Assembly (NCBI GenBank): GCA_963921795.1
Contig: OY997657.1
Span: forward strand, 32,078,071-32,142,070
Origin: Nannobrachium achirus
Taxonomy: Eukaryota > Chordata > Actinopteri > Myctophiformes > Myctophidae
Direction of reading: 5' to 3'
DNA: 64,000 nt
The notes under the pieces are model-generated. The model ran no database searches. It saw only the letters and a program-made list of their open reading frames with translations, and had not been told where the DNA came from. Positions 246 through 64,000 of the stretch are shown in pieces. Within the stretch, counting starts at the first letter, position 1, and every line of letters begins with the position of its first letter. The position numbers and the translations under genes were made by a program.

Positions 246-479
246 AGCATGACCAGCAATTGCAATAGTCTAAATCCTGGTGGGCGAGGTTAGCAATAGT
301 CAGGTCATGCATATTTAGGGCACATACCAGTTACCACATAGGCTGTACTGCCTGACAGCGAGTCCTCAGTTCAATTCTCTCACCAGGCTGACAATTTGCT
401 GCATAGTCCATACCCGCCATTTCCCCAGTAGGAGCGAGATCATTTAGCGACCTACAACTGGGTTGCAACCTGGTCGGTA

Positions 480-1172
480 GTTTTCACCGACTGGGTCGCT
501 AAATCTACCGACTGGGTCGCTAAATCCACCGACTGGGTTGCTAAATCTACCGACTGGGTCGCTAAATCTACCGACTGGGTCGCTAAATCCACCGACTGGG
601 TTGCTAAATCTACCGACTGGGTTGCTAAATCTACCGACTGGGTCACTAAATCTACCGACTGGGTTGCTAAATCTACCGACTGGGTCGCTAAATCTACCGA
701 CTGGGTTGCTAAATCTACCGACTGGGTCGCTAAATCTACCGACTGGGTTGCTAAATCACCGACTGGGTTGCTAAATCTACCGACTGGTCGCTAATACCGA
801 CCAGGTTGCTAAATCTACCGACTGGGTTGCTAAATCACCGACTGGGTTGCTAAATCTACCGACTGGGTTGCTAAATCACCGACTGGGTTGCTAAATCTAC
901 CGACTGGGTCGCTAAATCACCGACTGGGTTGCTAAATCTACCGACTGGGTTGCTAAATCTACCGACTGGGTCGCTAAATCACCGACTGGGTTGCTAAATC
1001 TACCGACTGGGTCGCTAAATCTACCGACTGGGTCGCTAAATCACCGACTGGGTTGCTAAATCACCGACTGGGTCACTAAATCTACCGACTGGGTCGCTAA
1101 ATCTACCGACTGGGTTGCTAAATCACCGACTGGGTTGCTAAATCTACCGACTGGGTCGCTAAATCTACCGAC
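480..1172. repeat. Minisatellite, 20-21 bp unit, left arm
   Basis: Tandem unit CTAAATCTACCGACTGGGTC with a 20-bp variant lacking one T. Copies differ mainly at one C/T position (GGGTCG or GGGTTG). It forms the left inverted arm of the 426-1937 element. Confidence 0.9.
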
Positions 1173-1213
1173 GGTTAGGGTTAGGGTTAGGGTTTGGGTT
1201 AGGGTTAGGGTTA
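1173..1213. repeat. Interstitial TTAGGG-like repeat
   Basis: About six GGTTAG units, one of them TTTGGG. It continues at 1532-1571 beyond the inserted MITE. It is internal to a transposon bounded by target duplications, so it is not a chromosome end. Confidence 0.85.
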
Positions 1214-1531
1214 AGCCCTTTGCACACAGGCGCGTTTAACCGCACGGATAAAACGGACAATATAATTTTTTGAAAAGAAAACAATGATTCTCTATGACCT
1301 CATGCACACCGGCTCCGAATTAGCTGTGCGACGAGTGGCTGCCGCTTTTTTCTCGATCGAACCCAGTTCGATTCGTGCGTCTTGTCGCATGCGGTAAAAA
1401 ACTCATCACTCCTTTTATGACTCCTTTTTGGATCCGCAGCGCCGATTCGGCACAGCCTTGCACACCAAATCCAATGCGTTTTATTCATGCCGCAAACGAA
1501 AAAAACGCAACTGTCCTGTGTGCAAAGGGCT
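1214..1531. mobile_element. 318-bp Harbinger-type MITE nested in the TTAGGG-like core
   Basis: The terminal inverted repeats begin AGCCCTTTGCACACAGG at both ends. It is flanked by TTA (1211-1213) and TTA (1532-1534), a 3-bp duplication typical of PIF/Harbinger. The sister element at 18279-19018 has an uninterrupted TTAGGG-like core at the equivalent place, which serves as an empty-site comparison. No transposase is encoded. Confidence 0.65.
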
Positions 1532-1573
1532 TTAGGGTTAGGGTTAGGGTTTGGGTTAGGGTTAGGGTTAGCA

Positions 1574-1890
1574 GCCCGGTCGGTGGATAAGCGACCCTGT
1601 CGGTAGATTTAGCGACCCAGTCGGTAGATTTGACAACCCAGTCGGTAGATTTAGCGACCCAGTCGGTAGATTTAGCGACCCAGTCGGTAAATTTAGCGAC
1701 CCAGTCGGTAGATTTAGCGACCCAGTCGGTAAATTAAGCGACCCAGTCGGTAGATTTAGCGACCCAGTCGGTAGATTTAGCGACCCAGTCGGTAGATTTA
1801 GCAACCCAGTCGGTATATTTAGCGACCCAGTCGGTAGATTTAGCGACCCAGTCGGTAGATTTAGCGACCCAGTCGGTGAAAACTACCGAC
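1574..1890. repeat. Minisatellite, right arm (inverted)
   Basis: Tandem GCGACCCAGTCGGTAGATTT units, the reverse complement of the left arm. It has about 15 copies, fewer than the left arm, so the palindrome is unequal. Confidence 0.9.
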
Positions 1891-2110
1891 CAGGTTGCAA
1901 CCCAGTTGTAGGTCGCTAAATGATCTCGCCCTCTCTCCATTTCCACCCACTATTCGTCCGGGCTATGGAACCACCACAACCACGACTACAGATTCCATAG
2001 CCAGCGAGGACAGTTCACAGAATAAACAGCTTAAATTTGGGAAAAGTGAAATGTTTCATATGCCAATAACCAATACCTGCAGTGTGTAAGTTCAGATCAA
2101 CTGTTCAACC

Positions 2111-7475: not shown

Positions 7476-7503
7476 GGTTTTTGTACGACTCTAAATCACT
7501 GTG
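7476..7503 (-). promoter_or_regulatory. V1 recombination signal, 12-bp spacer
   Basis: Read on the minus strand: heptamer CACAGTG (7503-7497), spacer ATTTAGAGTCGT of 12 bases, nonamer ACAAAAACC (7484-7476). Both parts are consensus, so the signal should be usable by RAG. Confidence 0.95.
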
Positions 7504-7975
7504 TGAACATATGGACACTGTTTATGTAATGATAACTCTGACAGTAGTAAACGACTGTATGGTCTTCAGTCTGAACTCCACTGATGGTCAAACTGAAGTC
7601 AGTGCTGCTTCCACTGCCACTGAACCGAGCTGGTGTTTGGGATTCACGCTGACTTACAAGTTTTATCAGAAGCTTAGGGGGCTCTCCAGATTTCTGTTGA
7701 TACCAGTGCAGATAATCTCCATATGTAGAACCTCTATAAACAGCTGGGTTAGTTTTACAGGTCAGAGTAACAGCAGCTCCTGGAGTAACTGTCATGAATG
7801 GAGGCTGAGTCACAGTTACTTGACTGCTGGATCCTGCAGACAGAAACAAAAATATTGATTAAATCTCAGAATAAAATATGAATAATAAACTGTGAAAAAG
7901 ACATTCTGTTTACCCATACTGACCTATGAAACAGCAGCAGACCAGTGTCCAGATGAGGATGGTGATGAGAGTCAT
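7504..7975 (-). CDS. Immunoglobulin light-chain V segment V1 (L1/kappa-like)
   Basis: There are two exons. The leader, 7975-7924 ([16 protein letters not shown], a signal peptide), ends at GTCAGT. The V exon, 7833-7504, is joined in phase 1 (G|GA). The V domain reads [20 protein letters not shown], with first Cys in LTCKTN, core Trp in [35 protein letters not shown], and second Cys in [10 protein letters not shown]. Both disulphide cysteines and the WYQQ tryptophan are present and the frame is open, so it looks functional. The 12-bp signal fits kappa-type (teleost L1/L3) genes. It is transcribed opposite to J and C, so V-J joining here must be by inversion. Confidence 0.93.
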
Positions 7976-9881: not shown

Positions 9882-10126
9882 ATATCGTCGTTGTCGAGCG
9901 GAAACCTTGTATCTCCAAGTTTCAAATTTTTACTTTACTTTTGTAAAGTACAGCCCTGTACTTTACAAAAGTACAGCCCTGCTTCATCATACAAGGCGGT
10001 CCCACAAAAGTAGTGAATACAGCAGATCTACAAGAACACAACGCCTCGTTGTGTGTATTTTTTATATGATAAATACAAAACAAACAGTTTTGGACATACA
10101 AGGTTTTCATCCGACAACGACGATAT
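9882..10126. mobile_element. 245-bp MITE with ATATCGTCGTTGTCG ends (copy 1)
   Basis: The left end ATATCGTCGTTGTCG is inverted at the right (CGACAACGACGATAT). The interior matches the reverse complement of 25706-25968 over nearly its whole length. It includes CAGTTTTGGACATACAAGG and an internal copy of the GATCTACAAG hairpin repeat at about 10014-10060. No clear target duplication was found. Confidence 0.65.
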
Positions 10127-10199
10127 TGTAACGCATGCATCTCTCTTCTCCCTGCTCCTCTCCATTCCTCCTCTCTTCCTCTCTCTCTCTCTCCTCCAG

Positions 10200-10525
10200 T
10201 GGGTTTGGTGCGGCCCACCCTGACCGTCCTCCCTCCCTCCAGAGTGGAGATGGAGCAGGGCAGTGCCACACTGGTGTGTCTGGCCAACAGGGGCTTCCCC
10301 TCCACCTGGACTCTGGGCTGGAAGGTGGGGGGCAGCAGCAGGTCCTCTGGGGTGTCAGGCAGCCAGGAGGTCCTGGGGGGGGATGGCCACTACATCTGGA
10401 GCAATACCCTGACCCTCACTGCAGATGAGTGGAGGAAGGCGGGCTCAGTGGGCTGCGAGGCCAGTCTGAGTGGCCAGACCCCTGTCACTCAAACCCTGGA
10501 CCCTGGACAGTGTTCTTCTGTGTAG
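10200..10525 (+). CDS. Immunoglobulin light-chain constant domain (L1 type)
   Basis: A single C exon after a strong polypyrimidine tract and acceptor (CTCCTCCAG|T at 10199/10200). It encodes [20 protein letters not shown], first Cys in [12 protein letters not shown], Trp in LGWKVGG, second Cys in [11 protein letters not shown], and a C-terminus LDPGQCSSV whose Cys forms the bond to the heavy chain. Length, about 108 residues, is normal for CL. The start [11 protein letters not shown] closely resembles teleost IgL type 1 (kappa-like group). A polyadenylation signal AATAAA lies at 10702-10707. Confidence 0.94.
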
Positions 10526-11082: not shown

Positions 11083-11110
11083 GGTTTTTGTACGACTCTA
11101 AATCACTGTG
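11083..11110 (-). promoter_or_regulatory. V2 recombination signal, 12-bp spacer
   Basis: Heptamer CACAGTG (11110-11104), spacer of 12 bases identical to V1, nonamer ACAAAAACC (11091-11083). Confidence 0.95.
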
Positions 11111-11598
11111 TGAACACACCGCCACTATGATAACTCTGACAGTAATAAACTGCTGCAAGGTCTTCATTCTGAACTCCACTGATGGTCAAAGTGAAGTCAG
11201 TGCTGCTTCCACTGCCACTGAACCGAGCTGGTGTTTGGGATTCACGCTGACTTATAAGTTTTATCAGAAGCTTAGGGGTCTCTCCAGATTTCTGTTGATA
11301 CCAGTGCAGACGATCTCCATATGTAGAATCTCTATGAACAGCTTTGTTAGTTTTACAGGTCAGAGTAACAGCAGCTCCTGGAGTAACTGTCATGAAGGGA
11401 GGCTGAGTCACAGTCACCTGACTGCTGGATGCTGCAGACAGAAACCAAATATTGATTAAATCTCAGAATAAAATATTAACAGGACAAATAGGAAATAGGA
11501 AAGAAATAGATTAAAGATTGATGAACATTTTGTTACACATATTGACCTGTGAAACAGCAGCAGACCAGTGTACTGATGAGGATGGTGATGAGAGTCAT
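11111..11598 (-). CDS. Immunoglobulin light-chain V segment V2
   Basis: Leader exon 11598-11547 ([16 protein letters not shown]) and V exon 11431-11111, joined in phase 1 (G|CA). The V domain [56 protein letters not shown] and [12 protein letters not shown] has both cysteines and the core tryptophan and is open. It is close to V1 and differs mainly around CDR1 and CDR3. Octamer-like ATGCAAAA (11666-11673, complement) and ACTATAAACC upstream form a V promoter. It lies downstream of C and is still in reverse orientation, so its use would invert the J-C segment. Confidence 0.93.
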
Positions 11599-17302: not shown

Positions 17303-25618
<8,316 letters not shown>

Positions 25619-36782: not shown

Positions 36783-37098
36783 ACGCGTGATTATGGATCC
36801 CACTGGGAAAGATGGATGGAAACGGCATAGAGCGCTCGTTTTCACAGTTATTGTCCACGACACTGCAAGCGGCGCGAAGGCCAGCGCGAGTTACGAAGCC
36901 GTGGTGAATGCAATCGTTCTATTTACGGCCTGGGCAAGCGCACGATAAACGCAATGATAATTGGGGTTTGGTGCACCTCGCGCGGTCCAAGAGACTACAA
37001 CGGAGCGCTCCCTACGTCCGGTTCAGCCAATCACAAGCTTCAAAATGAGTCCGGGGCGTGGTTATCCATCTTTCCCAGTGGGATCCATAATCACGCGT
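36783..37098. mobile_element. 316-bp MITE, ACGCGTGATTATGG ends, 5-bp target duplication
   Basis: Inverted ends ACGCGTGATTATGGATCCCA of about 36 bp. CAGTA lies on each side (36778-36782, 37099-37103). The interior is CpG-rich (GGCGCGAAGGCCAGCGCGAG), which suggests recent arrival. The superfamily was not determined. Confidence 0.65.
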
Positions 37099-49802: not shown

Positions 49803-52800
49803 CGAGGCTGAGGGGTCCGTGATGAGGAACTATGCTGATGTGCTGGCCATCCTGATGAGGCTTCGACAGCACTGCTGCCACCCTGCTTTGGTGGCCAAAA
49901 TTCTCAAAGAGCTGGGTAAAGACGGGATATTTTGGTTCATTTGTTGGTTCGTTGTTTTTTTTTTTTATCATTGGATAGCTTCATATGGGGCCCGTTACAC
50001 AAAAGTAGAATTAAATAAGCCAGGATTTAAGCCAAATCCAGGTTTGACAAAGCCTGCTTCGTCGAGCCAGGATCATAAAGCCAGGCTGAATGCGTGTTCA
50101 CATATTCCTTTAACTCACTTAGCACCGATCGACTTCTAAATCGACATTGTTATTATGGACGTCCCTGCCGATCGACTCTCAAATCGACTTTTATATAAAA
50201 GCAATTTTTTAGCAATTTTTTCATTGTATTAGCGGCGCAAACGGTTCCCCCTACCTTGTACTGGTTGAGACGTTAGACCGTGGAAAAAAAAGGATAAGCT
50301 GATGATGTCACTGGTTTTCAGTCCTTGTCTATGTAAGATGGCAGCTCCCAGCCGTTAGCCTGCTAACATACTGTCCATATCCATAACACTGCTTCAGTAG
50401 GTCGGATTTTCATTCCGATTCTTTTGTGTGGCGTCTGCATCCGACCATTTGCCCGGACGATAGGTCAATGTGAACGAAATGCCACGAATCGTGCAGATCC
50501 AGCGCGTAGTGTGCTCCGGCCCGCAGCCATTTAAAACCCATAGAGGAGGGGCTGGGAGGGGATCTTCACACAGCTGTGATGTTTACAGTGTTACGATGGC
50601 GCGCTCTGGTGGTGGTTGTTTGTTCAAACTCACACAATTGATCACATTAAAATATTAATATTTCCTGGCGTTATTAGCGCACATCCATATTTTAAGTTGG
50701 CTGGGAATGGGTTTTAAAAGCCCATGAGGTAGATAGTAGAATCCTTCGTGACCAATCATAGAACCAAAGACCAGAGCAGCGTTTTTCTGCTTCTTACACT
50801 ATTTCTGTAATAGCTCAGTCAAGTTTATGTCATGTTTGCACAGATTTCGTTCTGGATTATTGTGGGAGCTCTGCCAAAAAACAAACAACTGTGTAACATT
50901 GTTGCAATAAATAGTTTATATTTTGATGAGTGTGTTCTGGCGTAAATTTAAAAAAAGTGACAGTTATTCCATTAACCGTGCATCCCTCCCTCCTCCGTCA
51001 AGGTGAGTCTGCCACGCCGTCTGAGCTGCGAGAGCGTCTGATAGAGAAGCTGAGGTTGGTGCTGGCCAGCGGCTGTGACGAGGAGTGTTCTGTGTGTCTG
51101 GATTCGGTGCATCTGCCTGTCATCACACACTGCGCCCACGTCTACTGCCGCGCCTGCATCGCCCGGGTTATCAGCTCCGAACAGGTTTGTGGGCAGAGCA
51201 GGTCCTCACGCACGGTTAAACCAGTGGTTCTCAAACTTTGTTATGTAATGGACCCCACAAAAAATAAATAGCAGATGTGATGTACAAGCTCGCAGCACGG
51301 CACAAAGTGGCACGCTTTGAGCTTATATCTGCTATTTTTGAATTGCCAAATGTATAAAATATGGAATGGATATGGATTAAGTGATTAAAATGATTGTGAT
51401 GATGTGTTAACACATTTAGCTGGGGGCCCCCTGGTCTGCAGACCCCACTTTCAGAACCACTAAAACCAAAGAGTATTTTTTGTTTTGTTTTGTAGGTCAG
51501 TCTGTGTGCCATGTGGATGTAGTCAGGCCTTCTTTAATTGAAAATGTTTCTGTCAATAATGATTACCCTCTTTGTTTTCCATTATCATGTGTGTCCATGT
51601 GCATGTGGGTATAGGACAGGGCACGTTGTCCTCTCTGTCGAAGTGACATTAAGACCAACCAACTGGTGGAGGTTCCACCAGAGGAGTTGGAGGAGAAAGA
51701 CGAAATGCAATTGTGGAGGACCAGTTCAAAGGTACACACAAACACACCTCTGTGAGAGCTGGAGCTGTCAGCTTTCTCATGATGAAATCCTATTTTAATT
51801 CAATTCTATTAAAATGACCAAACATTTTATTGATGTGAATCCTAATCAATAGTTTGGTAAATGAATGATTTGAATCCTAATCAATAGTTTGGTCATTAAT
51901 ACATTCCAAGAAGAGAGAAGAAAAGTCCAAGCCAGAGAAATGCATTTCACCTACTTAACCTACTTACCTGATACACCATGAAATTTCACTTTTCCTATTT
52001 TAAAACCTTTTTTGGGGGTCTCACTAGCACCTTCTAAGTCCCATTTCTGACCATTGTGTCTTTCTCTGGTTTTGGGAAGGCGGAGGTTAAAAGCATCCCA
52101 CGGGTTCTCAAAACAGGCTGTCCAGATTTGCTGACGTCTTTTTTCAAAAATAATTTGGGGGAGTGGTGCAGTTCAGGCCAAAGGTGGTACTGCAGCTGAA
52201 AATGCTCTGAGAGCCATTCAAAAATGAGAGAGGCTCTATTCAGGAGTGGTAATTTAGCCTCAAACCTTTTGAAAAACTTTTTTTTGGGACATAAACAATA
52301 TGACATAAATACTTTTTAAATGCATGGTGTATCACCTTTAAAGGTTCATGAAACCCCAAATCACTTTTTCTATAAATATATATTATATCAATGAGTCACT
52401 TGTGATAGGGAGCAATGATATGATGCAATTTTCCCATAGGCTTGTGGATTCAGGGATATGATAAGCACGCACAACTCCGCCCCCTCCCCCCACAACAACA
52501 GATAACTACCCATACATTTTAGATTTCATATCTGAATTCTGATCAAATAAATAAAGAGGAGGGGTATCCTGACCTTTGGTCTGTCTTGTCATACCTTTTA
52601 AACAACTGGGGTGGGGAAATGTAGCTGATCTACAAGCTCACAGTGCGTAGTATTGTAATGTGTTGAAAGCCCCCTCTGGTTTACTAAGCCTAGTCTTCGT
52701 CTTAATATATCCTTCCCCTTTTTCCTTGCGTGCTGCGGATGGTGTGTGTACAGGTGGACGCTTTGTTTGCTAATCTACTCCGTCTGCGGAATGAGGACAG

Positions 52801-55800
52801 CACCATCAAATGTCTGGTTGTCTCTCAGTTCACACGCTTCCTCAGTATACTGGAGATCCCACTCAGGTAACACAAGCACCTTCAACCACCCATTAAACGC
52901 GGGAAAGCATTTGTGTCATTTTAGATTTTCCGTTGGCTTTTCAGACAAATTAGTGGAGGAAAAAAACACAGCTCATCTGCCGGTAGACTTGGGTGAGGTG
53001 CTGGAACCAAAAAGTAAATCAAAGGAACAATTAAAGGGAGCCTGGCATCGGCACTAAGTATAACTGTATTGTATATGGGCAGGTTGTAGACGAGTGGGTA
53101 GAGAGCCTTGGAAACAAGGTCCCTGATTCGTGTCCCGGCCCTGGTCTATATTGGATTATTTAATTTGGTGCAATACAGACGTATAATGGTGGGATTGTTC
53201 CTGACTGAAATGACTTGAGTGTAATGATAATTTGTAGATTTCCTGTTTTTGAATATAATAATTACATTAGTTTATTTTTTAAGATGGGTCCTGTTTTCTT
53301 TGAGGCAGACTAAAGGGAGGTCAATCTCAGAACCCAACAGCTAATCATTTACCATATTGTTTTTCAGATGATTAGCCTCTGGGGGTAATGGACAATTTTG
53401 TGGGATAAAGTTTAGTGCTACTGCCACTTCCTCTTTGTGACACCATTCTCAAATAGTATTAATTTCATAGACATCTTCTGTCAACTCAACTCCAACTCAA
53501 TTCTCGCATTTCAAGTTGTAAACGATGACCTACAGTATGCAGGGAAGAGGAAGTGCCCATAGCCCCAGAAGCAAAAATATTGAACAATTCAAGTACCGGT
53601 ATTAGCCAATGATTTCTGAGATTGACGGGAAGTTGACCGAAAAGTCTTGTGGCATGATTTAAACTAATACCAGCAAGAGGCATGTTGGAACAGGCGAGCA
53701 CATTAACGTCCCATACTAAGACACTCTCTTTTCTTTTACCCAGGGAGCAAGGCTTCAGCTTTGTTCGTCTTGATGGCAGCATGAGCCAGAAGAAACGTGC
53801 CCAGGTCATCAAGGATTTCCAGAACCCCGCTCCCGACAGCCCTGTCATCATGCTGCTGTCTCTCAAAGCCGGTGGGGTGGGGCTTAACTTAACTGCCGCA
53901 TCTCACGTCTTTCTCATGGATCCGGTGAGTTCTCTGACTGAGAAGAAGCCGGATAATTTGATGGGTGGCCGTGGCAAATGATATATTGTTTCAAATAAAA
54001 TGGTCATTTCAAATAAATTCTAATATGATACATTTTGAGCTATTATTAGATATCAGTGTTTCCCCAACAATTGTACAGGCCTGCTGTGCCATGAGGCCAA
54101 CAAAAACAATTGTGTGATACGATTGTGAGGCTTCAGAAGTGTGGAACCTCTCAGGCAACACTTCTTTGACTGGCACAAATCTCAACTCCCTTCAGTAGGC
54201 ACCCTGAAGCCAAATCTATACTTGGTTGTACGTACATATATAAATACATATTTGTACGTACGACGTATAAATGTGTGTTGCTTGTCAAAAAGAGCTGATC
54301 CAACCTCATCACATAGCCGGAGAGGTTATTGTCCCAACCCTATAGATTTGCATTGCTTAATTTGTATGCCACAAATGGACTGCATTAGTTATCCTCTCCC
54401 TGTAGTCGCTTTAAGTCTTGAACAATAAGCGAATAAAAGCCATCCTGATTGCTGTACCTGCTACGGTTTGTTTAGGCTCCTACCACAAGGCCTGAAGAGT
54501 GGAACACTGCATTTGTTTTAAAAAGTGTGTGTGTTGTATGCGTTTTGTGTGCTAGGCATGGAATCCGGCAGCTGAGGAACAATGTATTGACCGCTGCCAC
54601 CGCCTGGGCCAGACGAGGAAGGTCGTGGTCACAAAGGTCAGAAACTAGTGGATGATTTGCAACTATTCTCAGTCGCCATGATTGATTTCAGTCATTTGGC
54701 ATGTTGTGCAGCTCTCCATTGTTAGATTTTTGGTAATCTCTTACAAATTCTGTGTATTATATATTTATTGCCTCCCCAATTTAGTCGTGCCAATTAATTC
54801 CTCCCCACACACATTTGTGTTGTCACTACTGTTGATCCTACTGACTCAGCTGTGAGTCACAGCCCCCATCCATCACTCCCTGCTGACAGTTGCCGCCCCG
54901 GCCCGTAGGGCTACGTGCACTGCCAATCATCACCCTCTCCGCCCGGCTTCTCTCACGCTAATCTCTCAAGACAGATTCTCTGAACAAAACAGAGAGGGCG
55001 CTGTTTTTGGAGCGGTGAAAGCGCTCCCAATAGACAGGTATGTCCGTGGGTATGTCCCTGGGTGGCTGGGTGGCTGGCTGGCTGGCCGTGTCCGTAGCCT
55101 GGCAATACCTTGAGTGGCTTGTGCAGGCCAGGCACACTCACCACTCACTCACAGGCACAGTTTACAGTTTACAGTTTAGGCATTTAGCAACACACACAGG
55201 GTATAGCTGCTCAGATTCACCGCTCCACTTCGAACCGAGGTTTGATTTTTCATTTGACGATGGGTTCCCAGATTGCTCTCACCCAAACAAGTGTTCTGTG
55301 TGTAGACGTTTGTCAATGCCGGATGCACCACGGTCTGTGGTGCTGGGCAGCTACTTTACCACTGCACAAACCAAGCTGGTTATTTAAAGATTACAGCATT
55401 TGAAGTGGTCAAACTAGCAAGATGTTCAGAAGCATCTTCTATAAAATCTTAAGTCTGTGATATTTCATAAAAGCTAAGGTTAAAGCCCCAATCTGTGATT
55501 TCTTCACCTGGTTGGTAGTATGTAGAACGGCAGTACATTATTACTAAAACGTCATTTTACATATTGCTTTAATAATGTTTTGATATATGCTATACAAGTA
55601 AATAAATGAAGTTTATTATAAATTCTTATTTCTACGCCTTAAACCAAAAAGCTTCCCTGCAGACCACATGGATTAAGCAAAAATAAAATCGCTCAAATTA
55701 AAATGATTGTATGACCAAGTCCTAATTTGAGTTTTTGAGTTCTCCCCCACACAGTGCTTTACAAAATACAATAAGTATACTACTGTATATGGTTTGAAAA

Positions 55801-58715: not shown

Positions 58716-61700
58716 TTACTTGAGGAAGGTATCAATTTTGCGTTCAATGTGGACGAAGGAGTCGTCGCCCATGTAGTCTGCCTGACCAGCCTCCCACCTC
58801 TCTTTCCTCTCCTCTGATGACAACTGCCGGGCAGGGGGAGGCGTGGGGGCTGACGCATCCTTCATGGCCGCCTGAGCTGTATCCTGTAAGACACACATGG
58901 AAGGGAGAATAAGCATTGGTGCATTGGTGAAGTGTAAAACGCCAAGGATAGATTAAATGGATAGTTGCATTTTAGCAACGCTAACGGAAGGGCTCTAAGG
59001 ATGGCAATATCTGTGGGCCCTGTCCAGAATGCTGTAATCCCTGTGACTATCAAGGGTCTCTGGCTGTCTAAAGAGTTTGTGAAGTAACGCAAGCCAATTG
59101 GCAGGACTAATAACCAGCCATTCCAAGGATTCAACGTAGCACAGCAGAGTCTGACCATGATGCCTATAAACAATAGTACAATTTAGCAGATACTCCAGAG
59201 CAAAGGGCACAATCTGAGTAAATGGCATGAATGGTAAATGGTCAAATACACCAAGAAAACAGTCCAAGAAAACAAGTAAATGCTACCAAGTAACTAAGGT
59301 AACAGGTAGATATAACCCACATGCATGTCACATGTTCACAAACACAAGGAACATCTCAGACAAACACGGGAAAACACTCACGCAGCCAGTGTGGAAGGGA
59401 GTCTCTCCATATGCCAGACGTAGTGGAGGCAGCACTGAGGCAGAGTAGAGCTTCCACCACAAGACCAGGAAGTCACTCTGCTGCTCAGGGGTCATGGAGT
59501 GACCTCGGACCTCCCCAGTCTGTGCGTCATAGGAGTAGTCCCATGGCTTCACTTTGCCCAAGAAGTGTGCCACCTTGGCCTCACGCCCGTACCTGCAGGA
59601 ATGATAATATCAAATGCGGTTGAATATGAAGGTGAGTGTGAGAGACAGAAGGAATAGTATAATGACGAAATTGCAGGCAGAGAGGGGGAAGGAGATGCAA
59701 TAACATTCTCCTGACTGCTGGGGATGTTGGTCAGCTACCGGCGCAGCCCATCTTAACCGATTTAGTGCCATTCCCGAGATATCTCGCGAAATGTACTCGA
59801 GTATCTGTAGTGCCATTCCCGAGATATCTCGCGAAAAGTAATATATTACTGTAACGGCGGATACATTACCGAGTACAATGGGCGGAGGTCCGGAGACGAA
59901 ATCCGCCGCTGATTTCGCATCATCACGGCTCCTCCAGCACAAAATAGTCCCATCCATAACATTGAGGTGGACGGGGGATCTCATCTTTAATGTCCATTAT
60001 CTCAAAACTACACTTTAGAAGCTAGGATGGAGGCAGATGCTCGCTTATGTTACACAGTTATAAAAGCTCCCGGTCGGCCATTACACAACTCCACGTGGAC
60101 AATGATCGGTTCCGGCGCACGACCCGATGACGTCAGACCGGAAGTGATTGCGCTGTGGACTTCTGGCCTTCAAAATAAGACAACGCAAGTGAATGGGACC
60201 TGAAGGAGGCACTTTGGACATTATAATCCGTTAATGTCTGGGGCTCAGAATGAGTTAAATGGGTATTAGATTTGATCATTAGAATTTCAAATATTTTGCA
60301 ATAGTGATACCTTAAACTCTGATGATGTACAAGAATCTCAGTGTCATGCAAATAAAGGACCCATTGAGTTGAACTGACAGGAATGGGCAGCGATTAAAGA
60401 GGCAGACAACAGAGTATAACAGAGCAGAAGGCTGCTCCATTTCTAGGCAGGTGAAGATAGACTACATTTGGTCAGAGTCTCAGCAACTCCTTGTAATTAA
60501 ACACCCAGGCACAAACAAACGCACACCCCTTCAACTGACCGTGACTGGCCTTACAATACATACTGATATATATGGGGCATTAAGGACACAAAGACTGCAA
60601 AAAAAGAAGGAATTTGAGCAAACTGTGTGCGTGCGTGTGTGTATACACTGACTGTTTGAAGGCTGGTAAGTAGGAGTAGATGGCGATACTGCTGAGGTTG
60701 TAGATGAAGGGGAGGTGCTTGGAAATATCTGCCGTCGCCCAGGTGTTGAAGAAACTGTTAAGAACGCCCTGGTCTCCACCTGCACATATGGATGGATGGA
60801 CATACACAGTTACAATTACAGGATTTAGCAGACGCCCTTATTCATAGCGACGTGTGTCTAATGCATCATTACTGCCAACGATCGCCATCTGCATTCTAAC
60901 TGGCAAACACATATTATATCCCTCTTCCCCTTTATTTGGGGAACCACGACAACTGGATAATACCCACAGACCGAAATGCAATCGAGGGTGTTTTAGCATT
61001 GGTGTGATGCACCCAAAATAGCAGATCTACACGCTCACAATGCATCGCTACCAAGTAGAACTCAGGCTTCCCTGTTCCCTGCGGTGGGTTGTCTCTTTTT
61101 CACACGGGAAGTCTTGTGTGATATACTGCGACAAATGAATACGAAGGGTAGGGGTGAACCAGTGCTGAAAAATGCAGGCCAAGGTTAGGTCGTGTCAGAC
61201 CATAAAAGCAACCGGGTGGCGTCTACACAGGTGTGTCTGTCTGTGTGTGGGGGTCCTCCAAGGACAAAGTCTCCAGTTCAGTTGACTGCAACTGACCTAT
61301 GTGGCCACGGTTATCACATCTACTAGAAGACAAAGACATGGCCGGGAAACAATATTTACATAGGGCTTGGGAGATGAAAATGGGTCATAATGTCATCAGT
61401 CATTGTGCAATATATACGCTTTCCATACAATTCCCTTCTCAAAAGTTCTCATAATGGGCCTCAGCTATAGCCTTTATCAAGGTAGTTGGTGTGAACCGGA
61501 GTACAAACAATAAAGCAATGCGACAAGTTGTGAGCTTGTAGATTAGATCTGCCATTTTCAGTGTGCGACACTCGCGCACACCTAAGTATACATTCAGTCC
61601 TAGTTATCTCACCGTCAAAGCTGCCGTTCTCGCTGCTGAATGTGAGCAACTTCTGATATGTCTCATTGGATGGCCTGAAGACGAACACACCCGAGTTGAA

Positions 61701-64000
61701 ACAGTCTGGCCAACCAGGATCAGGGGCTGCAGATAGCTCCTCTCTCTCAAACAGCTCGTCTATGTTTGATAGAACCTGTACAAGATTTATAAAGACATCC
61801 TTAAATGTAATGCAAATATCTCAAAATACAATTCCCTTGGCTCTGTGTATCACTTTACTAATAAATAACCTTGGTTTAAAAAAAAACTAAAGTAATGGCA
61901 TTCAACACAAAGGGGGGGGGGGGGGACCATTGCTTCTGACAGTGCCAGCAGGATGGTGCTCGAGGTAGTCAAGGATTTTAAATATCTCTGTGCCTGGACT
62001 GCCATGATGGAACATGATCTGAATGTCCGGAAGAGGACACTTGCCTAGAATATATTGTACGGGATGAGGCGACTTTTCGTGGCTATAGTAAAATCACTAC
62101 TGCTGTACAGTACAGAAGGAAAAGGTCTTGGGTGGCGTCTACACAAGAATGTTACGAACGGCACTTGATGTCAAATGGGCAGAAAATTGTGACTTGTATG
62201 CAGGCCTCCCACATGGACAAGGTCAATGAGATAGGATGAGGCTGGCTGGAAGCTGAAACTGATGGCGAGCAAACTGTGGGAGCCAACCACCAACAGTATA
62301 CTGTAGACACACTTTAGAGTGATAGTGGAGCTAGCAACACTGCAGCGCTCCCGACTCCAATGTTGGATAGCTGAGATCCAGGAGTCACTTGCATCACAAT
62401 ATGCACTCTCGCATCACATTGCATATCCATAACACACTTTGATATTTTGACTCAAAAAGAAAATCCCTGCTACTAGTAAATAAGTTCAGCACTGGTCAGC
62501 TTCTAATTTGTTTCATGTCTACACATAATGTTTATTAGTCTGGAACTTTGGTGTGGAAGAAAACCGATTCAAATGTTACAGAAAAAAAAGGGGGGGGGGA
62601 GGGATCCCACTTTTTATTCACCTGTTTCCGCGAGAATTTACTGTAGCATTATTTGCGGGACACTTCTGGTTAACAGCAGACATACAAGCTCACGTCGCGT
62701 CGCAGATGCAACCGTTGTGAGCTTGTAGATCACCCTCGGCTGCGGCGCCGGAAGCTGCCTGCACATTCTGCGCAATGCACGATGGGATGTTGGAAAGTTG
62801 TGGATAATGGGCTCTGATTGGTCACTCGCAACTCTGGGGTGAGCGAACTGTAATTCACACAGAGGAGTTCCAGACCAATCTGGAAATTTATTCTAGAGTA
62901 ACATGGGATTCACGCAGGTGAATTAAATAATGATTCATACCTGATGTCATCACAAATTACATTGTTTAACATAATACACAAAAAATGAATCGTATGAAAA
63001 ACACATTTTTCATTTAATTCTAAATACTTTATTTACAAAGCCACCTTTTTCAAAAGGCCTTTTACAGCATGGTGCCTAAGGTATGTGCTGTACAGGTATG
63101 TCCCCACAAAAGCAGACCATCTGTACTGAACATCCCCCAAAATAGAATAATCACAGCGCAGCTCAAGCTGCAGTGTGCTGTGCCTGTGCATAGAGCAAAC
63201 AACACAGCTCAGCTGACGCTGCTATGCCAATCACAGCTCAGCAACACTAGCACACAGCTGACATTGCAATGCCAATTAAAGCTCAGCAATATGAACACAA
63301 AGCACATACTTGGTGATGTGTAGCCAGCTTAACCAGTGTGTAGTTAATCAAATTTATTTTTGAAATAAACTTCTACCTAGTGACCTGTGGCCTGGACCTG
63401 TGACCTAGGTCACCAAAACCTGCTACCATGTGTTCATGTCAATACAGATGGATATAGACAGACGTGGCGTGTGTGTTGAGCCAAAGTCAAAGTAGTCTTG
63501 CATGGCCAGACTTTTGCCTCCCACAATTTTCAAATGCTTCCGTCATACAGTCTGGAGAACAGAAGCTCTGATCACGAGTAAAATATAAAACGGATGTGAA
63601 GCCTCCTCCCCACTTCTGTCTCGTCTTTACAGTCGCGCAAAATGTATCTGAATATGAATCAAAATCGTCTAAGAATATATATATATATAGCTTGCCAATT
63701 AGCAGAAATTGATATTTTCAAATATATTTCTGTGAACGGAAAAGCCAACTTCTGTCACTCTGATTTCGGGAAAGTGTAGTCTTAGCCTGGTGTTCCAAGT
63801 GCCAAGCTGCCTGAAACCTTTTCAATTGTGTGTCATTTTATGTTGGTGTGCATAAGAATTACTTTTATTTAGTACCGTAAGTATTAACTTGAAGTTAACA
63901 CTGACATGAAATTCAGCGCATCCTTGAGTTGACAGCTGGTTGTGCTTGTAGGACAGAAGAGGCAGTAGTAATGTTGCTCACCAGTGTGTCTGCATCCATA
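58716..64000 (-). CDS. gyg1: Glycogenin-1, 3' part of the gene (cut at window end)
   Basis: Five exons are visible: 64000-63982 (partial), 61775-61613, 60779-60653, 59592-59382, 58883-58716 (TAA). Translation: MDADTL (the DxD metal/UDP-binding motif of GT8 enzymes), [68 protein letters not shown] (the segment with the autoglucosylated tyrosine), [32 protein letters not shown], and the C-terminal [19 protein letters not shown] and [10 protein letters not shown] that bind glycogen synthase. Glycogenin primes glycogen by attaching glucose to itself. The region between catalytic domain and tail is much shorter than the main human isoform. The N-terminal exons lie beyond 64000. Confidence 0.95.
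59757..60254. mobile_element. TTAA-flanked MITE 3 in a gyg1 intron
   Basis: TTAA at 59753-59756 and 60255-60258. The right end, reversed, reads CTCATTCTGAGCCCC; the left CCGATTTAGTGCCATTCCCG. TGCCATTCCCGAGATATCTC occurs twice, 45 bp apart, next to the left end, each with the palindrome CGAGATATCTCG. It is CpG-rich and so probably young. Confidence 0.6.
61013..61045. repeat. GATCTACAAG hairpin repeat, half copy
   Basis: AAAATAGCAGATCTACACGC followed by TCACAATGCATCG; the matching arm is missing. Confidence 0.55.
61935..62400 (+). mobile_element. Decayed LINE fragment, C-terminus of a reverse-transcriptase ORF
   Basis: Broken plus-strand frames give [45 protein letters not shown] and [17 protein letters not shown]. 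These resemble the tail of teleost non-LTR ORFs (VEDFKYLGSW, VRKALAW, LWEPTHG, FVDTLxxDTG from memory). Stops and frameshifts are frequent, so it is old. A G-run precedes it at 61912-61925. Confidence 0.6.
62619..62806. mobile_element. MITE CCACCTGTTTCCGC...GTTGTGGATA (copy 2)
   Basis: The counterpart of 44697-44880 in the same orientation. It is more CpG-rich (CACGTCGCGTCGC at the hairpin loop), so copy 1 is likely the more decayed one. Confidence 0.6.
63155..63300. repeat. Imperfect tandem repeat of a CACAGCTCAGC unit
   Basis: About three diverged copies of a block of roughly 50 bp: ACACAGCTCAGCTGACGCTG, CACAGCTCAGCAACACTAGC and AAAGCTCAGCAATATGAACA, spaced through 63205-63300. Confidence 0.5.
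63494..63560. repeat. Diverged half copy of the TAGTCTCGC MITE
   Basis: TAGTCTTGCATGGCCAGAC and TTTTGCCTCCCACAATTTTC match one side of 36633-36723. The other terminus was not found. Confidence 0.5.

Follow-up and report, generated by a model that had tools for sequence, protein, structure and literature searches.

Telomere-like patches dispersed over the chromosomes of the fish Nannobrachium achirus by a recently active family of jumping DNA

The stretch of DNA analysed here, 64,000 nt from Nannobrachium achirus (C20:32078071-32142070, contig OY997657.1, assembly GCA_963921795.1; hereafter the window), carries two copies of a mobile element whose inverted arms are built of short tandem repeats and which hold a block of telomere-like TTAGGG repeats (Table 1). 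Internal TTAGGG sequence is usually read as the scar of a chromosome fusion or of telomerase-assisted break repair. Both window copies are members of a large and recently active family of parasitic jumping DNA, by which telomere-like patches have been dispersed over the chromosomes. The initial annotation had described the pair (426-1937 and 18279-19018) as sharing the same ends and as flanked by 8-bp target duplications matching at seven and eight of eight positions, and both observations hold. The tips are identical in the two copies (left CAGTAGGAG, right CCTCTCTC), and the flanks read CATTTCCC/CATTTCCA at copy 1 and ATAGAAAG/ATAGAAAG at copy 2, those of copy 1 rising from 7/8 to 8/8, as CCATTTCC, when the boundary is shifted by one base (by eye).

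Table 1. Features of the window. MITE, miniature inverted-repeat transposable element; TIR, terminal inverted repeat; TSD, target-site duplication; TRF, Tandem Repeats Finder.
Feature	Position	Strand	Remark
Copy 1, rarer CTGGG subfamily, 1512 bp including nested 318-bp MITE	426..1937	+	
Left target-site flank CATTTCCC, copy 1	418..425	.	7/8 match to right flank
Left terminal domain, copy 1	426..504	+	inverted match to right end, base 9 onward
Left array, copy 1, 21-bp unit ACCGACTGGGTTGCTAAATCT, ~33 units	486..1172	+	TRF
(TTAGGG)n core, left part, with one TTTGGG, copy 1	1173..1213	+	
Nested 318-bp MITE, 17-bp perfect TIR AGCCCTTTGCACACAGG, TSD TTA	1214..1531	.	
(TTAGGG)n core, right part, copy 1	1532..1571	+	
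Right array, copy 1, inverted 21-bp unit ACCGACTGGGTTGCTAAATCT, ~15 units	1568..1877	-	TRF
Right terminal domain, copy 1	1859..1937	-	
Right target-site flank CATTTCCA, copy 1	1938..1945	.	
Copy 2, common CCGGG subfamily, 740 bp	18279..19018	+	
Left target duplication ATAGAAAG, copy 2	18271..18278	.	
Left array, copy 2, ~6 units	18339..18470	+	TRF
Approximate turning point of the arms, CTGCCTGCAG loop, copy 2	18476..18490	.	
Inner inverted units left of telomere-like core, copy 2	18485..18599	-	
Core GGTTGCGTGGCAGGTTAG...GAGGTTAGGTTTAGGGTTAGGGTTAGGGTTAG, copy 2	18600..18675	+	aligns to interior of MITE L101; TTAGGG run 18,643-18,672
Right array, copy 2, ~12 units	18700..18956	-	TRF
Right target duplication ATAGAAAG, copy 2	19019..19026	.	
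Separate 312-bp MITE, 33-bp perfect TIR, 9-bp duplication GTCAGTAAC	36785..37096	.	
Immunoglobulin light-chain-like V-set and C1-set exons	7496-7858, 10073-10525		Pfam
Immunoglobulin light-chain-like exon	11103-11462		by similarity to 7496-7858
Protein kinase exon, probably PAK-like	21425-21733		
RING and Helicase_C exons, probably HLTF-like	50930-53981		
Glycogenin-like frame	61461-61820		no Pfam match

In both copies the arms consist of 20-21 bp units in inverted orientation, delimited with TRF, and the unit differs between them (CGACTGGG against CGACCGGG), as originally pointed out in the annotation. This unit repeats a near-palindrome, AGCGACC(C/G)GGTCGCT, and has in common with the terminal domain a TTTAGCGACC motif located near the tips. 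The outer 8 bases of the element differ between the left and right ends (CAGTAGGA against GAGAGAGG) and do so in the same way in both copies, while from base 9 inward the ends form a perfect inverted repeat through ~80 bp. The proposal that the arms meet at TTAGGG stood for the rarer CTGGG type of copy 1 and for that type only: the arms of copy 2 reverse near 18,480, where CTGCCTGCAG makes a predicted hairpin loop, and its TTAGGG block sits within the right arm among reversed units. Folded as single-stranded DNA, copy 2 reaches a predicted -278.2 kcal/mol, against -132.2 +/- 5.3 for 20 shuffled versions. The core of copy 1 is split by a nested 318-bp MITE (1214-1531), which we take to be PIF/Harbinger-like. 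A 39-bp repeat found on either side of this MITE was considered as an odd target duplication and dropped, being the (TTAGGG)n core itself with TTTGGG variants, which is also present in uninterrupted sister copies; since these sister cores carry repeated TTTGGG, a TTA duplication is the simpler reading.

The genome searched comprises 1.66 Gb in 564 contigs. The family ends read CAGTAGGAGCGAGATC and GAGAGAGGGCGAGATC, and exact 27-bp ends occur 559 times on the left side and 740 times on the right, reversed-pattern controls giving 0 for both. Loci were fetched around exact ends on contigs C1-C4, where 79 of 99 left ends have a right end in the fetched stretch, a pairing that tolerated up to three substitutions. 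Among these 79 two-ended copies, 62 are bordered by perfect 8-bp duplications and 7 by duplications matching at 7/8, in comparison with at least 7 matches in 4 of 1,975 pairings of a left flank with the right flank of another copy. The 20 left ends lacking a partner include one copy, L088, that is complete at 3,268 bp with GAAAAAAG/GAAAAAAG flanks; three (L032, L042 and L092) with 8/8 duplications and one (L085) with a 7/8 duplication beside damaged right ends (by eye); L039, which runs into an assembly gap; and L084, whose exact right end lies 6,205 bp from the left one. A transposon family with fixed ends, as originally proposed, is thus what the genome contains: neither the genome-wide search for ends conserved beyond the initial pair nor the reading of duplications on C1-C4 overturned it. 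Two pattern scans for relatives in viral contigs gave 0 matches each.

The lengths of the copies cluster at 740-770 bp, and 40 of the 53 common-type copies (690-830 bp) have another copy within 1% (gaps ignored), which argues for recent activity of the family; copy 2 itself has its nearest relative at 0.56% difference. The mean pairwise difference among the same 53 copies is 5.6%, some of them being older. Insertion sites with perfect duplications show a weak palindromic preference, aCAnnnnTGt. In the tandem repeat L100 (C1:84825530-84839514), five right ends follow each other at an exact spacing of 3,496 bp, each unit containing a left-truncated family copy with a decayed TTAGGG block.

Neither the two copies of the window nor L088 nor any left-only locus examined showed a transposase open reading frame (ORF). 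The ORFs at left-only loci comprise a Gypsy-type integrase beside L012, a frame with reverse transcriptase and GIY-YIG in L084, and repeats (by reading, with Pfam for the L084 frame only). The retroelement of L084 (C3:23366166), with its reverse transcriptase-like and GIY-YIG domains, is probably Penelope-like and abuts the TTAGGG core of the copy. L088, considered as a long coding copy, was rejected as such, being a fold-back of 3,268 bp that is non-coding and whose TIR-like homology extends far inward; together with L099 (C3:48050755-48054022), it shows inverted repeats that run through microsatellites and other repeats, with a degenerate TTAGGG array in the loop.

Which transposase moves the family bears on its superfamily. 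hAT elements carry CAG at both ends read inward and prefer nTnnnnAn targets. The 8-bp duplications and the left tip, which starts CAG, would fit a non-autonomous hAT family, and the genome is rich in hAT transposase domains (150 scored of 1,653 candidates). However, CAG is not found at both ends: the left one reads CAGTAGGAG, but the right one read inward is GAGAGAGGG and begins GAGAGAGG. Moreover, the target preference departs from that of hAT, with T at position 2 in 14 and A at position 7 in 8 of the 62 perfect duplications, and none of 25 scored hAT matches on C1-C3 comes closer than 53 kb to an exact end in the list (a sample of both matches and ends). The copy bearing a hAT transposase that the annotation had proposed to look for was not found, and we regard membership of hAT as possible but doubtful. 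In this line, mobilisation by a Zisupton/KDZ transposase was also weighed: Zisupton makes 8-bp duplications (PMC12730594) and is recorded in fish (PMC9297572). KDZ domains are present in the genome (68 matches of 118 candidates), but none of 12 KDZ loci on C1-C3 comes closer than 291 kb to an exact end in the list. We regard this source, too, as possible but doubtful. Mutator-like elements (MULEs) make target duplications of ~9 bp. A ninth base was sought in the 62 perfect copies and dismissed, the pre-left base matching the last base of the element in 10 and the post-right base its first base in 4.

As for the arms, the annotation had held that the arrays evolve by expansion within each element while the ends stay fixed. 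Taken to the full, this would mean that each element, once inserted, enlarged its arrays independently of the others, in favour of which unit counts vary within a type (nine CTGGG-type copies, including copy 1, parse into 27-39 left and 6-15 right units), as do the TTAGGG runs. The same nine copies, however, agree in the order of their unit variants and in how the arrays join the core (by eye), which indicates that most of the array came down from a common parent. Many copies of the common type are moreover almost identical. Independent expansion is accordingly improbable as an origin of the arrays, which were mostly inherited and later altered by gain and loss of units, expansion within a copy being a minor effect. 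The difference in unit between the window copies marks subfamilies and does not on its own show that arrays expanded inside a copy.

The arms of a given copy resemble each other. They were compared over a 24-bp variable stretch in the 64 of 81 copies (79 fetched plus the two of the window) with gap-free terminal domains on both arms, and the stretch is alike on both in 51: 41 of the CCGGGTCGCGACG type, 9 of the CTGGGTTGCAACC type and one other. Arms of one copy differ by 0.52 on average and those of different copies by 1.90, with 0 of 10,000 permutations as low, in a test that disregards descent. In four older-looking copies, of TCCAAC type, the arms differ at 2-4 of the 24 positions.

The telomere-like block is a regular component of the longer copies. 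Of 68 copies of at least 600 bp, 65 contain at least 2 consecutive TTAGGG and 57 at least 3. Defining a strict site as (TTAGGG)3 preceded by a base other than G, there are 1,884 starts genome-wide (control 2), and 451 of them (24%) are preceded by the family lead-in GAGGTTARGT; the 43 cores of CTGGG type found genome-wide start differently and are additional to these. Of the 72 TTAGGG loci on C1, 0.16 would be expected to fall within 1.5 kb of an exact family end and 12 do so, and 10 of 20 lead-in sites are near such an end (tallied by eye), the sequence of the other 10 being unread. The family thus owns roughly an eighth to a quarter of the strict sites, most of which lie outside it, and the dispersal of telomere-like DNA by these elements, suggested from the window, is confirmed at the scale of the genome. 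That the blocks are interstitial telomeric sequence from break repair or chromosome fusion, with an incidental transposon link, would suit the 1,433 strict starts without family flank and the 60 C1 loci that have no exact end within 1.5 kb, but it is highly improbable given the one common flank of the 451 starts and the excess near ends on C1. It is refuted for the copies read, where the block is inside a repeated element with target duplications, and may hold at some of the remaining sites.

These cores also receive insertions, three of which were seen: the MITE of copy 1, the retroelement of L084 and, at L097 (C4:3594900-3598300), one family copy inserted into the TTAGGG core of another. Elsewhere in the window, a TTAGGG pair at 19,777 is found in another small repeat-like stretch; the TTAGGG-like GGTTAAGTTTAGGGTTAGGG of 19700-19850 lies in an apparent small inverted-repeat element, possibly a third carrier.

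A clue to the origin of the core came from the stretch preceding TTAGGG in L088, a repeat with 99-100% identity in all 40 scored of 835 candidates. Ten of these 40 scored matches cluster at C11:55.57-56.03 Mb, a region that also has KDZ domain matches. The one copy of this repeat that was read, L101 (C2:6667343-6667720), is a 378-bp MITE with TIRs matching at 32/33 bp and a 9-bp duplication CTACTGCCT. Its interior, GCGTCGGCAGGTTAG...ACTGAGGTTAAGG(TTAGGG)n, is 87-90% identical over 68-80 bp to four family cores of older type (L061, L070, L073 and L084), and the genome has 3,946 occurrences of its 24-bp signature (control 0), in some cases repeated at 39- or 45-bp spacing within one place. L101 and the fold-back family are alike in the lead-in GCGTCGGCAGGTTAG...ACTGAGGTTA followed by TTAGGG; the MITE differs in its length, in its TIR and in its 9-bp duplication (one copy), and it has no 21-bp arrays and no such fold-back arms. 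The telomere-like block is therefore not peculiar to the fold-back family, since a much more numerous MITE has it. From this homology, the core probably came from an L101-type MITE that inserted in the fold-back ancestor and was then trimmed. The 312-bp MITE of the window (36785-37096) is 91% identical over 101 bp to the L101 interior but has different ends, which suggests mosaic elements.

Altogether, the best explanation, to which we give a probability of roughly 0.8, is a non-autonomous fold-back DNA transposon family with a captured telomere-like block, amplified recently. Two features of the fold-back class are present: long terminal inverted repeats that are themselves composed of short tandem units, and target duplications of constant size. 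A transposase made elsewhere would cut and paste the element through its terminal domains, leaving the observed 8-bp duplications. The 20-21 bp arm unit most likely represents clustered transposase-binding sites, because it has a near-palindrome and shares TTTAGCGACC with the terminal domain. An ancestor would have acquired the telomere-like block, probably by nested insertion and trimming of the second MITE, and the recent amplification of subfamilies with matched arms then took the block to hundreds of sites, the numbers of units and hexamers presumably drifting by slippage or unequal exchange.

Several points weigh against this explanation. Ten of the 79 two-ended copies have at most 6 matching duplication bases, and copies with exact ends, taken from C1-C4 only, are a sample biased to intact young copies. 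No autonomous copy was found among the left-only loci, in the 10 kb behind the bare left end L034 (L098) or among paired listed ends: of 49 coordinate pairs of listed exact ends (C1 to C3:28 Mb), a single one spans over 1.5 kb, and the portion read from it consists of a retroelement insertion. For the likeness of the arms, one matching event in each founder or subfamily would suffice, and the capture of the core could have gone the opposite way or from a third source. Finally, of the 11 copies shorter than 600 bp, 10 are devoid of TTAGGG and 7 are bordered by perfect duplications, so that block and long array would be unnecessary for insertion if these short copies moved as such. A short subfamily was considered for those of 99-528 bp, whose lengths cluster, and set aside, as the junctions differ per copy (by eye); junctions that look private to each favour later, separate deletions.

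On a wider and more tentative reading, one that we consider unlikely as a whole, DNA transposons would be a main route for the spread of telomere-like DNA in this genome, with a (TTAGGG)n module passed between unrelated non-autonomous families (the 8-bp fold-back family, the 9-bp L101 MITE and perhaps the element at 19,700-19,850 of the window) and possibly kept because it is helpful, a benefit that may lie in telomere-binding proteins, G-quadruplexes or easy nested insertion. If true, transposon cargo would account for much of the interstitial telomeric signal on which karyotype studies draw. Apart from this reading, datable cut-and-paste insertions bear TTAGGG at 451 strict sites, 43 cores of the second type and 3,946 MITE signature sites, and such cargo is a concrete and testable source of internal telomere-like DNA. 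In addition, young copies, known age classes and two arm types offer a clean system for the growth of minisatellite arms and for arm matching. Among the neighbouring genes of the window, the immunoglobulin light-chain-like exons lie between the two transposon copies, and their domains agree with a vertebrate host.

Fold-back elements have been described in flies, sea urchin and plants (PMC4079207), and two papers describe tandem repeats in their arms and suggest transposase binding (PMC4079207, PMC3573991). According to the first one, Tetris of Drosophila virilis, like FB and the sea-urchin TU that it cites, has long inverted arms of tandem repeats in variable number; FB and TU are likened to the present family by architecture. 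Tetris further resembles it in lacking a transposase, in its 8-10 bp duplications and in an arm repeat resembling part of the terminal domain. The Tetris unit, however, is ~220 bp long against 20-21 bp here, where we find 8-bp duplications only, a telomere-like core and hundreds of near-identical copies. Galileo of Drosophila (PMC3573991) has in a similar way long repetitive TIRs that expand and contract, many two-TIR copies and suggested extra transposase-binding sites, but it belongs to the P superfamily and has 7-bp duplications and ~210-bp repeats, in comparison with 8 bp and 20-21 bp in this fish. Short interstitial telomeric sequences from break repair are similar in their short internal TTAGGG arrays; according to the reports (PMC8537989, PMC7215372) those arrays were inserted at breaks, whereas here a mobile element with target duplications surrounds the array with constant flanks. 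The break-repair account deals with a different class of sites in other species, and the present results do not contradict it, although the two routes contrast. A fold-back transposon with a TTAGGG core was not found reported in the open-licence literature, judged mostly from titles and the starts of abstracts. The architecture of the family is thus a known one, that of fold-back elements, and it is the telomere-like cargo that is unusual.
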